Assembly (NCBI GenBank): GCA_026129685.1 | Contig: JAHCHO010000002.1 | Coordinates: 372,001-436,000 of the forward strand | Direction: 5' to 3' | Length of the DNA: 64,000 nt | DNA from: Fimbriimonadaceae bacterium | Lineage (GTDB): Bacteria; Armatimonadota; Fimbriimonadia; Fimbriimonadales; Fimbriimonadaceae | Shown: in pieces, positions 43,896 to 48,383 of the stretch | How the letters are laid out: each line of letters starts with the position of its first letter | How positions within the stretch are numbered: the stretch's first letter is position 1 | Notes under the pieces: model-generated | Told to the model about the DNA's origin: nothing | Databases searched by the model: none | The model's input: only the letters and a program-made list of their open reading frames with translations | Translations under genes and position numbers: made by a program

Positions 43896-43925
43896 GGACC
43901 GGTAGCCGCGGGGCCCGACCGCTGG

Positions 43926-43931
43926 TATAGT
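43926..43931 (+). promoter_or_regulatory. -10 box TATAGT upstream of the riboswitch
   Basis: TATAGT is followed about 7 bases later by a 6-bp hairpin with a UUCG loop (GGGCGG/CCGCCC, 43938-43953) that would sit at the 5' end of the RNA. No convincing -35 box is visible. Confidence 0.5.
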
Positions 43932-43957
43932 TTCTCTGGGCGGTTCGCCGCCCGACC

Positions 43958-44071
43958 AAGGCCTAATGTCGCGACCGTGACAGCGGGGGACCCGTTCCCC
44001 GGGGTGTATCCGGCCCATGCGCCGGAAGGGTGGTTCTTGACCCTAACCCGACAGCTAACCTCGCCGGCCGA
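43958..44071 (+). ncRNA. Cyclic di-AMP riboswitch (ydaO/yuaA class)
   Basis: The aptamer hallmarks are all seen in order. GGCC (43960-43963) and GGCC (44066-44069) close P1, with GCCTAAT on the 5' side (consensus GCCGAAT). Then come GGGGGACCC and GGGGTGTATCC, and a hairpin CCGGC/GCCGG. The 3' core is ACCCGACAGCTAACCTCG, nearly identical to the core in structurally solved members. The class binds c-di-AMP and usually controls cell-wall hydrolases or potassium and osmolyte transport, most often turning expression off. The gene downstream begins 35 bases later. Confidence 0.9.
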
Positions 44072-44091
44072 TGCAAGAACCGGGTTCGCCC

Positions 44092-44100
44092 GGAGGAGGT
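44092..44100 (+). promoter_or_regulatory. Shine-Dalgarno GGAGGAGGT deciding a TTG start
   Basis: GGAGGAGGT ends 6 bases before TTG 44107, an ideal placement. GAGGTTA (44096-44102) is exactly complementary to TAACCTC (44056-44062) in the aptamer core, and a CCGGG-UUCG-CCCGG hairpin (44080-44093) lies between them. Confidence 0.75.
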
Positions 44101-44106
44101 TACGAT

Positions 44107-44394
44107 TTGACGGAATTCGACGCGCGCGCCAAGATGGCGCACATTGAGGCATCCACGATGCCGCCGATGCGGAAGGTACGCGCCCTGTTGCGGTTGCGCC
44201 GCGCGATCCGACTTCGACTTCGAGCCTTGAGCGTTTCCCTCGCCGCTCCGATCGCCAAGATCGATCGCGATGCCGCCACGCGCATGACGCGTCTGCTCGA
44301 TAGCCTGCACCGGCTGGACAACGACGTCCAAGATGCCGCGCAGCGAGCGCTCGCGTCGCACGGGGCCAAGTCGTGGATCGGTTCGCCGCGATAG
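44107..44394 (+). CDS. Small helical protein under riboswitch control, unknown
   Basis: A 95-residue protein, rich in Arg, Ala and Leu, predicted to be almost all helix (TEFDARAKMAHIEA; MRKVRALLRLRRAIRLRLRA; RMTRLLDSLHRLDNDVQDAA). The first helix pair is strongly basic and amphipathic; no signal peptide or clear membrane segment. No family is recognised. The TTG start is set by the strong Shine-Dalgarno; the in-frame ATG at 44071 lies at the edge of the aptamer P1 and has no ribosome site. c-di-AMP control hints at a role in envelope or osmotic physiology. Confidence 0.75.
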   Translation: MTEFDARAKMAHIEASTMPPMRKVRALLRLRRAIRLRLRALSVSLAAPIAKIDRDAATRMTRLLDSLHRLDNDVQDAAQRALASHGAKSWIGSPR

Positions 44395-44460
44395 GGTTCG
44401 GTGGTGCCGGGGGCGCGGCCGCAACGGCGCGGCTTCGTCCCGCTCAAATCCAGGGTCCAC

Positions 44461-44493
44461 GGGCGCCGAAGGAAACACGGCGCCCATTTCCTC
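44461..44493 (+). terminator. Hairpin after the riboswitch-controlled gene
   Basis: GGGCGCC (44461-44467) pairs with GGCGCCC (44479-44485), followed by ATTTCCTC. It lies between the 3' ends of this gene and of the convergent M23 gene. Confidence 0.4.
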
Positions 44494-44512: not shown

Positions 44513-45655
44513 TCAACCGCCGAGGTAGGACAGCGGGTTGACGGGCGAACCGTTCACCCGCACCTCGAAGTGGAGGTGCGGGCCGGTGGAGAGGCCGGTG
44601 GATCCGACGAGCCCGATGCGCTGGCCACGGCGAACCTCCTGGCCCGACCCGACCAAGAGCCTCGAGCAGTGGCCGTAGAGCGTCGAGATTCGGCCCCCGT
44701 GGTCGATGACGATGTAGTTGCCGTAGCCCCGGCCGTACGCGGCGAAGATCACGGTCCCGTCGCCCGCCGCCATGATCGGCGTCCCGGTTCCGGCGCCGAA
44801 GTCCACGCCGGTGTGCATCCGGTTGCGCTTGAGAATCGGGTGGAAGCGGTTGCCAAAGCCGCTCGTCATCCTTCCGCTGACCGGTTTCCCGAGGCGGCCG
44901 CTGAACGCGCGTGGCACCGACCCCTTCGCGCTCGCGTAATACCGGGCGATCTGGCCCGCGATCGAGCGAGACTCCTCCTCGAGAATCGCCAACGCCCTCT
45001 CGAGTTCCTCGGCCTTGTTGCTGAGTTGGGCCAAGTAGGTTTGCTTCTGTCGCTTGGTGTCGCTCAGGTCGCCCTGTTGGCGCTCTTGATCGCGCTTGAG
45101 GCCGGCGATGCGGACGACGAGGCCATCGGCACGCTTCTTGTCGGACTCGATCCGTTGCGTCAGGGCTCGGTACTCGGTGAAGATTTCGCGATCGTGGGAC
45201 GCGACCCGCTCGTACACGTACCTTCGCGAGGCCAGTTCACCCACGCTGTTGACCCCGAGTACGGCGGAAACCGCCTGTCCCTCGCCGCGCATGTAGATCG
45301 CCTTCATGTGGAGGCGAACCTGGTCGCGCAGATTTTGAAGGCGGTCCCGAGCGGCCACGAGGTCGTCGGCCAGCGAGGCCTGCTCCCTTCGGCTCTCCTC
45401 GAGCCGGCGGGTGGTGTTCCCCAATTCGTTTTCCAGGCGATCGAGTCGCTCATCCACGTCGCGAATATCGACGCGCACCGCCCGCACCGCGCGCCGGGTC
45501 GCCTGGAGGGCCGCCCCCGTCCGCTTCTTCTCGGTCGTCAGCTCACGGAGTTTGGACTGCAGGCCCTTCACCTTGGTGGGGCTTGGTTTGGCGCTGGGTT
45601 GCCCCACCGCGACCATCGCCGAAAAACACGCCAGAACGAGCGCCCACTGCCTCAT
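44513..45655 (-). CDS. M23-family murein hydrolase activator/peptidase (EnvC/PcsB-like)
   Basis: A 380-residue exported protein. It has a signal peptide at residues 1-18, a long coiled coil (about 25-245), and a C-terminal LytM domain: SGFGNRFHPILKRNRMHTGVDFGAGTGTP, YGHCSRL and GPHLHFEV, with the zinc ligands (H in HTGVD, D, H-x-H) intact, so it may be an active peptidase. The coiled coil plus LytM layout and the place right after ftsE-ftsX, with a 4-base ATGA overlap, indicate control by FtsEX during division. Confidence 0.9.
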   Translation of the reverse strand: MRQWALVLACFSAMVAVGQPSAKPSPTKVKGLQSKLRELTTEKKRTGAALQATRRAVRAVRVDIRDVDERLDRLENELGNTTRRLEESRREQASLADDLVAARDRLQNLRDQVRLHMKAIYMRGEGQAVSAVLGVNSVGELASRRYVYERVASHDREIFTEYRALTQRIESDKKRADGLVVRIAGLKRDQERQQGDLSDTKRQKQTYLAQLSNKAEELERALAILEEESRSIAGQIARYYASAKGSVPRAFSGRLGKPVSGRMTSGFGNRFHPILKRNRMHTGVDFGAGTGTPIMAAGDGTVIFAAYGRGYGNYIVIDHGGRISTLYGHCSRLLVGSGQEVRRGQRIGLVGSTGLSTGPHLHFEVRVNGSPVNPLSYLGG

Positions 45656-46524
45656 GCTTCGCGAAGCGGCCTCCGTGCCGCCACAAGGGAACAGACGAAT
45701 CCGAACGCCCCCCCGGTTACGACGAGGAGCGCCAAGGTCGGCCAGAGCGGGAAAGGCGATGGGTCCACCGTCGCCATCAGCCCTTCGACGGTGGCGGCGA
45801 AGAGGCGGTAGACGGTGTAAAGCGCGGGGGTGGCGAGCGCCCCGCCGATCGCGCCCTGCACCGTCCCTTCGATGAGAAACGGGATCAGGATCGTGCTTTG
45901 GGTCGCCCCGACCAGGCTCATGATGCGAATCTCGCGGCGACGCGCGTGCAGCGCCAGCCGGATCGCGATGTAGATCAGGATGCCGGCGGTCGGGACCAGG
46001 GTGCCAAAGAGACCCAAGCCCAGCCATCCGAGGAGCCGGAGGATGTGGCTGATCAACTCGTGCTCTTCGCTCAGGTAGTTGACGCCGTTCGGCGCCACGG
46101 CGGGCAGTCGTTTGATCGAGGCGGCCACCGACCGGCTCTCTTCCAGGTCCTTCAGGATGACTTTGAAGGCGTCGGGGAGAGGGTTGCCCAGGTCCTCCGG
46201 CATCGCCTCCCGAAGGTCGCGCTTGAAGCGTTGCCAGGCGGCGTCCTTGGGAATATGCACCACAGTGTCCACCCCTTCGATCGCACGGATCGCGGTGGCG
46301 GTTTCACGGACCTGATCGTAGGTGGTCCCGTCGCGCAAGAACACCCGCATCTCGAACCGGCTGGGAAGCGAGCGCGCGTAGGCGTCGATCCGCCAGTAGG
46401 CGTACGCCAGCCCTCCGACAAGGAAGAGAGCGACCGCGGAGGTCGTGATCGTGGCGAACGTCATCCCCTTGTGCCGGGTGAGCGACGCCCACGCTTCGCC
46501 GATCAGGAACTGGAGCCTATTCAT
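45652..46524 (-). CDS. ftsX: Cell division protein FtsX
   Basis: Permease-like partner of FtsE, 290 residues. One helix near the N-terminus (TFATITTSAVALFLVGGLAYAY), a periplasmic loop of about 120 residues with the usual FLRDGTTYDQVRETATAIRA, then three helices with the FtsX core (RREIRIMSLVGATQSTILIPF). It carries the signal across the membrane to the M23 protein. The start ATG 46524 overlaps the end of ftsE by 8 bases. Confidence 0.93.
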   Translation of the reverse strand: MNRLQFLIGEAWASLTRHKGMTFATITTSAVALFLVGGLAYAYWRIDAYARSLPSRFEMRVFLRDGTTYDQVRETATAIRAIEGVDTVVHIPKDAAWQRFKRDLREAMPEDLGNPLPDAFKVILKDLEESRSVAASIKRLPAVAPNGVNYLSEEHELISHILRLLGWLGLGLFGTLVPTAGILIYIAIRLALHARRREIRIMSLVGATQSTILIPFLIEGTVQGAIGGALATPALYTVYRLFAATVEGLMATVDPSPFPLWPTLALLVVTGGAFGFVCSLVAARRPLREA

Positions 46525-47215
46525 CGTCGAAGCGGCTCCGATCCCCAATAACGTGGCCGTTCTCGAGGGTCACCACCCGACGGTTGGTCCGCCGGATCAC
46601 TTCCGTGTCGTGACTCGCGACGAGGACGGTCGTGCCTCGTAGATTGAGTAACTGCAGCAGTTCCATGATCTCCCAGGAATGCTGGGGGTCGAGGTTCCCG
46701 GTCGGTTCGTCGGCAAGAAGGAGGCTCGGGTTGTTGATGAGGGCGCGGCCGATGGCGACCCGCTGTTGCTCGCCGCCGCTCAGTTCGTGGGGAAAGGCGT
46801 CGGCGCGATGGCCGATTTGGACTCGTTCCAGAATGTCCGGAACCTTGCGCCGGACCTCCGCGCGCGACCTTCCCACCGCTCGCATCGCGTAGGCGACGTT
46901 CTCCCAAACCTTACGGCTGGGCAACAGGGCGAAATCCTGAGGAACGATGCCCATCTCGCGACGCAGCATCGGAACGTCCCGCACCGTCGCCAGGTCGCGG
47001 CCGTTGAGCCAGACTTTGCCCGCCGTTTCGCGGACCTGTCGGCTCAGGAGTTTGAGGACGGTGCTCTTGCCGGCGCCCGTTCGGCCGACGAAGAACACGA
47101 AGTCTCCCCGATGAATGCTCAGGGAGACGCCGCGAAGTCCGTAGACGAGATCGCTGAACTTGACTTCGACCCCGTCGAACACGATATAGGGGGACTCGGG
47201 TTTCTGCTCCGCCAC
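46517..47215 (-). CDS. ftsE: Cell division ATP-binding protein FtsE
   Basis: ATPase of the FtsEX complex, 232 residues. Walker [10 protein letters not shown]-loop [17 protein letters not shown], signature LSGGEQQR, Walker [13 protein letters not shown] and the H-loop VASHD are present. FtsEX uses ATP to switch on murein hydrolases at the septum. The start is GTG 47215 with TAGCAT ending 11 bases before it; a longer frame to 47323 lacks similarity. Confidence 0.93.
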
Positions 47216-47276
47216 GGGCCGAACCCATGCTACCTGCTTCGCCCCCTCGCCCCTCGCGGCAAGGGGGCGAAGCCGA

Positions 47277-48383
47277 TCAGTCCACCACGCTGACGGTGAA
47301 GCGTCGCCCATCGGCGACGCCACTCATGTCGATGCTTTCGACGCGCCGATCGTCCCGCATTCGCACGCGACCGTTGCCCGTGATTCGTCGGCTGAATCCG
47401 TCGGTCAGGGTCAGGGAGTAGTCCCGACCGTTGCGCGTCCATCGTCCCTTGAAGACCACGTCCTTCTGGCCGTCCACCTTGATCACGAACGTGCGGTCGC
47501 TCCGGATCGCGATGTCCGCCCGGTCGAGTCGGCTGGAATCTCGGTCGACCCTCAGGGTGCCCGAACCCCGAATGGTCGCGTCGAAGGAGTCGTCGTAGTC
47601 CGGGCGGCCGTCGGCGGCGGAGTCGAACGCGATACGGAACGAGCGGCCGTTGGCGGAGCCCTTCATCTGGATCGTTCGGACGGATCCGTCACGGTCGCGG
47701 GTCAGCGTGCCGGTCCCGCGCGACCCGCTTCGGTCGAACGCCCGGTCCACGTCGAGGTCGTAAGTCGAACCGTTGCCTCGCCGGTTCCACTGCCCGGTGA
47801 CCCTTACCTTGATGTCTCCGATGAACTGGATATCGAAGTCGCCGTTGCCCTTCATGGCGACGATCGCCTCGCGGACGTTGTCAAGACCGTCGAACTCCAC
47901 GACGCCACGCCCTCGGCTGCGGTGGTTGAAGGCGTCGCTCCAGCCGGAGCCGCCGGCTCCCCAGCCGGGCCCGGTCGGTCCTCCGTTGTCGCGGGCGGTG
48001 AAGCTCACCGAGAAGGCGTCCTCGTCGACCTTACCGGACAACTCGATGCCGCGCACGGCGGACCGACCCGCCATCGTCAGGGTGCCGCGTCCGCTCACTC
48101 GCTCGTTGCGGCCATTGACGTACTTGACATTGAGGGTGATGCCGCCCCCGCTCTCGGTCCAAACGCCCTCGAAGGACGGACTGCCCGCCCCACGGAACTG
48201 GATCGTGAAATCGCCGCGCGAATCGAGGCGAACGGTCGCGTCGGTCAGGGATTGGCCGCGCCCCCGAAAGGTGAAGAGACCGCTGCCCCGGATCGCGTCG
48301 TTCAGGTCGCGGTACTGGGCCGAGACGGCGCCCCCGGCGGCGGCGATGCCGATCAGCACGATGGTTCGGACAAGACTGTTCAT
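47277..48383 (-). CDS. Exported protein with repeated beta modules, unknown
   Basis: A 368-residue protein with a signal peptide (MNSLVRTIVLIGIAAAGGAVSAQ). Three similar modules of about 110 residues follow. Each has the pattern S-G-x-G-x-x-x-x, a strand with V-x-L-x-x-x-G-D-F-x-I-x-F, and then x-G-x-W and G-x-G-T-L-T (for example RGDFTIQFRG, NGDFDIQFIG, DRTFVIKVDG). The fold is probably all-beta, perhaps a sandwich or barrel built from repeats. No family recognised. It is upstream of ftsE on the same strand but 62 bases apart. Confidence 0.78.
   Translation of the reverse strand: MNSLVRTIVLIGIAAAGGAVSAQYRDLNDAIRGSGLFTFRGRGQSLTDATVRLDSRGDFTIQFRGAGSPSFEGVWTESGGGITLNVKYVNGRNERVSGRGTLTMAGRSAVRGIELSGKVDEDAFSVSFTARDNGGPTGPGWGAGGSGWSDAFNHRSRGRGVVEFDGLDNVREAIVAMKGNGDFDIQFIGDIKVRVTGQWNRRGNGSTYDLDVDRAFDRSGSRGTGTLTRDRDGSVRTIQMKGSANGRSFRIAFDSAADGRPDYDDSFDATIRGSGTLRVDRDSSRLDRADIAIRSDRTFVIKVDGQKDVVFKGRWTRNGRDYSLTLTDGFSRRITGNGRVRMRDDRRVESIDMSGVADGRRFTVSVVD

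Follow-up and report, generated by a model that had tools for sequence, protein, structure and literature searches.

What does a member of the Armatimonadota regulate when it places a riboswitch for cyclic di-adenosine monophosphate (c-di-AMP) in front of a small gene of no recognized family? The locus lies in a 64,000-nucleotide stretch of a Fimbriimonadaceae genome (GenBank assembly GCA_026129685.1, contig JAHCHO010000002.1, positions 372,001 to 436,000 of the forward strand), here called the window, whose numbering is used throughout. A preliminary description had placed a ydaO/yuaA core upstream of a gene for a 95-residue basic helical protein, called that gene an orphan, and proposed its product as a candidate new c-di-AMP effector. 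We consider it highly likely that a complete aptamer serves as 5' leader to a one-gene unit, in which c-di-AMP would set output translationally and whose product would belong to the c-di-AMP regulon. The riboswitch class is already known; the target family, as judged from sequence, is new and conserved across the order.

A complete c-di-AMP aptamer ahead of a small gene

43950-44084, plus strand: c-di-AMP riboswitch aptamer (RF00379, ydaO/yuaA), from cmscan and a whole-genome search
43960-43963, plus strand: P1 5' strand GGCC, pairing with 44066-44069 (4/4 pairs) in the Rfam alignment
43983-43988, plus strand: P2 5' strand GCGGGG, pairing with CCTCGC at 44059-44064 in the Rfam alignment
44031-44039, plus strand: pseudoknot loop strand TGGTTCTTG, pairing with 44074-44082 and co-varying at most related loci
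44074-44082, plus strand: pseudoknot tail strand CAAGAACCG, its end shared with the 5' arm of the hairpin that follows
44107-44394, plus strand: gene for a 95-residue basic protein with three predicted helices (open reading frame [ORF] with TTG start, stop included; homologues; AlphaFold2 [AF2] model)

The RF00379 covariance match (cmscan) scores 84.7 bits, where the gathering score is 38, with an expectation value (E) of 2.8e-18, and covers model positions 1 to 134 of 134 without truncation; the same aptamer was recovered again when the whole genome was searched. The covariance score had been set beforehand as a check and lies well on the positive side of the cut-off. The core previously placed at 43958-44071 falls inside the match, and the sequences quoted for it are present. 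The long-range pseudoknot, which is absent from the Rfam structure line, is intact in the window, with nine pairs between TGGTTCTTG and CAAGAACCG. Its complementarity is kept despite sequence differences at most related small-protein loci, in a comparison where automated matching chose a different pairing at a few relatives.

Known examples of the class include Bacillus subtilis ydaO (kimA) and Bacillus thuringiensis kdpFABC. The window leader resembles the class in having P1, P2, the core, the pseudoknot, and a score far above the cut-off. It differs in its target, which is a small basic protein rather than K+ or osmolyte transport or a hydrolase, and in its downstream region, where a scan of the leader found no intrinsic terminator. 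The window genome (3.94 Mb, 99% complete) carries two RF00379 aptamers in total. By its gene content the host has the means of both making and sensing c-di-AMP, as it encodes a diadenylate cyclase (PF02457, E 3e-36) and the c-di-AMP receptor CdAMP_rec (PF06153, E 1.2e-35); c-di-AMP synthesis is predicted from these genes.

The riboswitch-gene pair is conserved across the order

With the window protein as sole query, 61 genomes yielded 15 matches at E<1e-3, 12 of which lie directly behind a same-strand RF00379 aptamer. A 15-member profile was then run against 291 phylum genomes; the significant homologues all came from two families in the Fimbriimonadales (Armatimonadota). At E<1e-4 we count 32 homologous loci, one tandem copy being left out: the gene stands directly behind a same-strand aptamer at 26, five have no aptamer, and one (G139:C63) was unchecked. 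The aptamer was present in 9 of the 11 cases checked in genomes outside profile building. When 7711 ORFs from 76 riboswitch loci were searched with the profile, all 24 matches at E<0.2 fell among the 424 same-strand aptamer ORFs, and the best match in a reversed-sequence control had an E of 1.4.

Homologues behind the riboswitch in related genomes, a further point on which the preliminary description was to be judged, are thus found, and its word "orphan" has to be given up; the sequence comparisons make the small gene a member of a divergent, conserved family. The neighboring genes in the window (PIG-L, M23, FtsE, and FtsX) were found at none of the other riboswitch-small gene loci, those of the same genus included, which indicates that the riboswitch-gene pair itself is what is kept. 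The aptamer, the pseudoknot, the gene, and the order-wide conservation of the pair are established by sequence and comparison. What survives of the effector proposal is a gene behind a c-di-AMP riboswitch in a conserved pair; the term "effector" goes beyond this evidence, as the comparison shows riboswitch linkage. A literature search returned no c-di-AMP work on Fimbriimonas and no link of RF00379 to Armatimonadetes or to small proteins, with the two main target-gene surveys lying outside its coverage.

A small basic protein of a new family

The description of the product as a basic, helical protein of 95 residues holds: the isoelectric point (pI) is 11.7, and AF2 with the family alignment predicts helices at residues 3-15, 20-46, and 54-90 (predicted local distance difference test [pLDDT] score 84.6, predicted template modeling [pTM] score 0.71). 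Most family members have 85-115 residues. They share the motif TExxxR...I..S...P..KAR.LLRL.R, and R7, K23, L70, and A78 are invariant in the 15-member profile alignment. That the protein belongs to no recognized family was likewise borne out, as nothing significant was found for it in Pfam, NCBIfam, PHROGs, or PADLOC, and a PDB sequence profile search and a search of plasmids gave no match. Foldseek and VIA-align returned generic bundles alone (UvsY, CorA N-domain, Der p 5, RRF; Z up to 10.8), which we did not use to assign function.

GC-rich DNA contains many spurious long frames, and the ORF could in principle be one of them, with no gene behind it. The probability of this is negligible, given about 50% identity in two further species of its genus, residues invariant across two families, and a Shine-Dalgarno sequence in place.

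The protein is most likely cytosolic and would act through its conserved basic helix (TExxxR...PxxKAR), which perhaps targets RNA, ribosomes, or a nucleotide ligand. One variant of the interpretation given above fixes this function, making the protein a stress factor that binds RNA, ribosomes, or DNA, is produced as c-di-AMP changes, and has no link to nucleotide binding. In its favor, nearly all members are strongly basic, most with a pI of 10.4-11.9, and R and K are conserved on helix 2; however, one member is neutral (pI 7.0), a GC-rich genome favors arginine, and family and PDB searches reveal no homology to factors of this kind. We regard the variant as plausible, at somewhat less than an even chance.

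Probable translational control in the leader

43923-43931, plus strand: possible extended -10 promoter element TGGTATAGT, tentatively read from sequence; the transcript would start about 12 nt before the aptamer
44056-44062, plus strand: TAACCTC, belonging to the aptamer core and to the 3' strand of P2, able to pair alternatively with GAGGTTA (44096-44102) at the ribosome-binding site (minimum-free-energy fold and ensemble model)
44080-44093, plus strand: CCGGG-TTCG-CCCGG, a hairpin of the expression platform directly adjoining the Shine-Dalgarno sequence, read from sequence
44094-44102, plus strand: AGGAGGTTA, containing the Shine-Dalgarno sequence AGGAGGT (44094-44100; 7/8 match)

Control in the window leader is likely translational, judging from this layout. 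Binding of c-di-AMP would stabilize P1, P2, and the pseudoknot; the stabilized aptamer would alter ribosome access to the Shine-Dalgarno sequence, which lies about 12 nt past the pseudoknot; and protein output would then track the c-di-AMP level. Hairpins like CCGGG-TTCG-CCCGG are present at several short-leader relatives.

As to the direction of switching, we judge ON and OFF about equally likely. In the ensemble model the Shine-Dalgarno accessibility is 0.29 when the leader folds freely and 0.53 with the aptamer imposed; a site less accessible without the aptamer would make an ON switch, and the same result would follow if an unformed aptamer left its P2 3' strand free to pair with the ribosome-binding site. 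OFF is the precedent for this riboswitch class. One such case is nlpC of Corynebacterium glutamicum, which encodes a cell-wall peptidase and is preceded by a translational c-di-AMP OFF riboswitch with a proposed anti-Shine-Dalgarno element (PMC9960051). The window switch resembles it in being apparently translational and in having an anti-Shine-Dalgarno candidate in the leader, but here the candidate is the aptamer's own P2 strand. Several long-leader relatives have a separate CTCC anti-Shine-Dalgarno element, resembling the proposed nlpC element.

Several observations count against a c-di-AMP-controlled leader. The linkage counts are not independent, as the genomes share ancestry, and five homologues lack an aptamer (L154 in G028, L152 in G141, L157 in G143, L041 in G008:C6, and L156 in G015). 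A consensus scan of the leader found no sigma-70 promoter, the complete leader shows no folding advantage over shuffled sequence (z 0.63), and the switching direction given by the ensemble model differs among relatives.

No degenerate riboswitch was found when one was searched for at the five aptamer-less homologues. The copy in G028 seems to have almost no leader and a TATACT box immediately before it. An operator-like palindrome, GAATACGTATTC, precedes aptamer-less copies, beside a divergent transporter-like gene.

A possible likeness to cyclic-nucleotide sponges

A further possibility is that the small proteins are cyclic-nucleotide sponges or buffers of the Acb2 kind, so that the riboswitch would close a c-di-AMP feedback loop. 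Because Acb2 is described in a review as a short helix and two long antiparallel ones (PMC12043709), we compared profiles directly. The window protein is like Acb2 (T4 Vs.4, PaMx33 p26) in length and in the order of its helices, and R7, K23, and R25 are conserved; members of its family also share one operon with a Tad1-like gene (see below) in three genomes (G012, G019, and G026). However, three-helix bundles are commonplace, and Acb2, a phage protein, has no sequence or profile similarity to the window protein. An hhalign comparison with the T4 Vs.4 family profile gave a probability of 0.2% over 20 columns, and the invariant residues of Acb2 (GY, N, K, M, R, QP; from an alignment of T4 Vs.4 and homologues) have no counterpart in the window family. 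Neither Acb2 structure (8h2j, 7uq2) is among the Foldseek or VIA matches listed for the window protein, which would still be compatible with a structural match outside that listing. The window protein is not a Tad1, with an hhalign probability again of 0.2% and an all-helical model, as opposed to the N-terminal beta sheet of Tad1. The window protein may work in a sponge-like way, but its identification as Acb2 is unsupported by sequence, and we hold the sponge explanation to be decidedly improbable.

A Tad1-like gene in related riboswitch operons

Tad1 is a phage cyclic-nucleotide sponge. A chromosomal homologue of it lies downstream of RF00379 at about 15 related loci (among them L100, L076, L073, L066, L105, L089, L176, L179, L180, L182, L189, and L191), usually in second or third position after a gene for a small helical protein and twice (G013 and G158) directly behind the aptamer. 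In the window genome the Tad1-like gene is elsewhere, at C1:174376-174681 (L177), and has no riboswitch in front. By sequence and fold the gene of these operons is Tad1: phmmer against CmTad1 (8kbb; CbTad1 is 7uav) gives 1.5e-7, and the best 20 Foldseek rows for the model are all Tad1 (best E 2.2e-3), the N-terminal half of that model being of low confidence. Binding of cyclic nucleotides or of glycocyclic ADP-ribose (gcADPR) is only predicted.

The Tad1-like gene occurs in 67 of the 291 phylum genomes and in most members of the Fimbriimonadaceae, the family of the window genome. Its named genome matches are almost all Armatimonadota metagenome-assembled genomes, many labeled Fimbriimonadaceae, and a pattern scan found it in no viral contigs. 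The metagenome-assembled genomes CP075364 and CP075366 are examples of relatives that encode it. It looks like a host gene. The top papers returned by a literature search for Tad1 with riboswitches made no mention of Tad1.

In one genus (g30), a further small helical protein (MSFVSQIMRKASIVERSE...) is encoded between the riboswitch and the Tad1-like gene (L105, L176, L179, L182, and L191). Its similarity to the window family is borderline (E 0.13).

It is conceivable, though on these sequences unlikely, that the c-di-AMP riboswitches of the Fimbriimonadales run a nucleotide-buffering module made up of small helical proteins, that of the window included, and a host Tad1-family sponge, with c-di-AMP itself setting the levels of these proteins. 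Such a module, if real, would provide homeostatic feedback or protect the c-di-AMP pool from phages that interfere with it.

Neighborhood of the window locus

44461-44485, no strand assigned: possible stem of a bidirectional terminator, GGGCGCCG/CGGCGCCC, separating the two convergent genes, tentatively read from sequence and unreported by the terminator scan

As the preliminary description had stated, an M23 murein hydrolase gene (PF01551, E 1.6e-37) ends close by on the opposite strand, at 44513, tail to tail with the small gene and 119 nt from it. It is one gene of an ftsE-ftsX-M23 cluster (44513-47323, minus strand; coiled coil and peptidase M23) that is convergent with the small gene and resembles FtsEX with a hydrolase partner.

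This arrangement, together with the frequent control of hydrolases by c-di-AMP riboswitches, raises the question of whether the riboswitch transcript serves mainly as antisense RNA against the convergent operon. We find this very unlikely: the neighbors are not conserved at other loci even within the genus, whereas the coding sequence and Shine-Dalgarno sequence of the small gene are, and the possible terminator stem would stand between the two genes.

Other genes behind the riboswitch in relatives

Other genes downstream of RF00379 in these genomes include those for HisB (7), major facilitator superfamily transporters (5), and AsnB (2); at the HisB and transporter loci the leaders measure 200-300 nt or more, which makes riboswitch control of them a candidate only. 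About 250 nt separate the second riboswitch of the window genome (C1:385363-385500; L052:3001-3138) from hisB downstream of it, and hisB follows a riboswitch in at least seven relatives. Control of histidine biosynthesis by c-di-AMP, if true, would be unexpected. In other families of the order, a riboswitch lies within 60-80 nt of asparagine synthase genes (L111 in G037 and probably L112 in G038).

At about eight loci (L058, L061, L075, L078, L086, L098, L109, and L070) the aptamer precedes genes for small proteins of 109-142 residues, which we call type B; several have an FMEY/FMEF-like C-terminal end. Merging type B with the window family is unsupported by sequence comparison, and a relationship is not demonstrable.

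Meaning for the Fimbriimonadales

The linked Tad1-like operons may be more important than the small-protein finding itself, as they suggest that a type of phage anti-defense protein is also a host gene under second-messenger control. The conserved linkage makes it very probable that the small-protein family constitutes a new arm of c-di-AMP signaling. It would represent a new and conserved c-di-AMP output in a phylum that has received little study, with the protein to test now named. With the signal set by the riboswitch, direct tests of function would become feasible for a family of small proteins that is otherwise unassignable.
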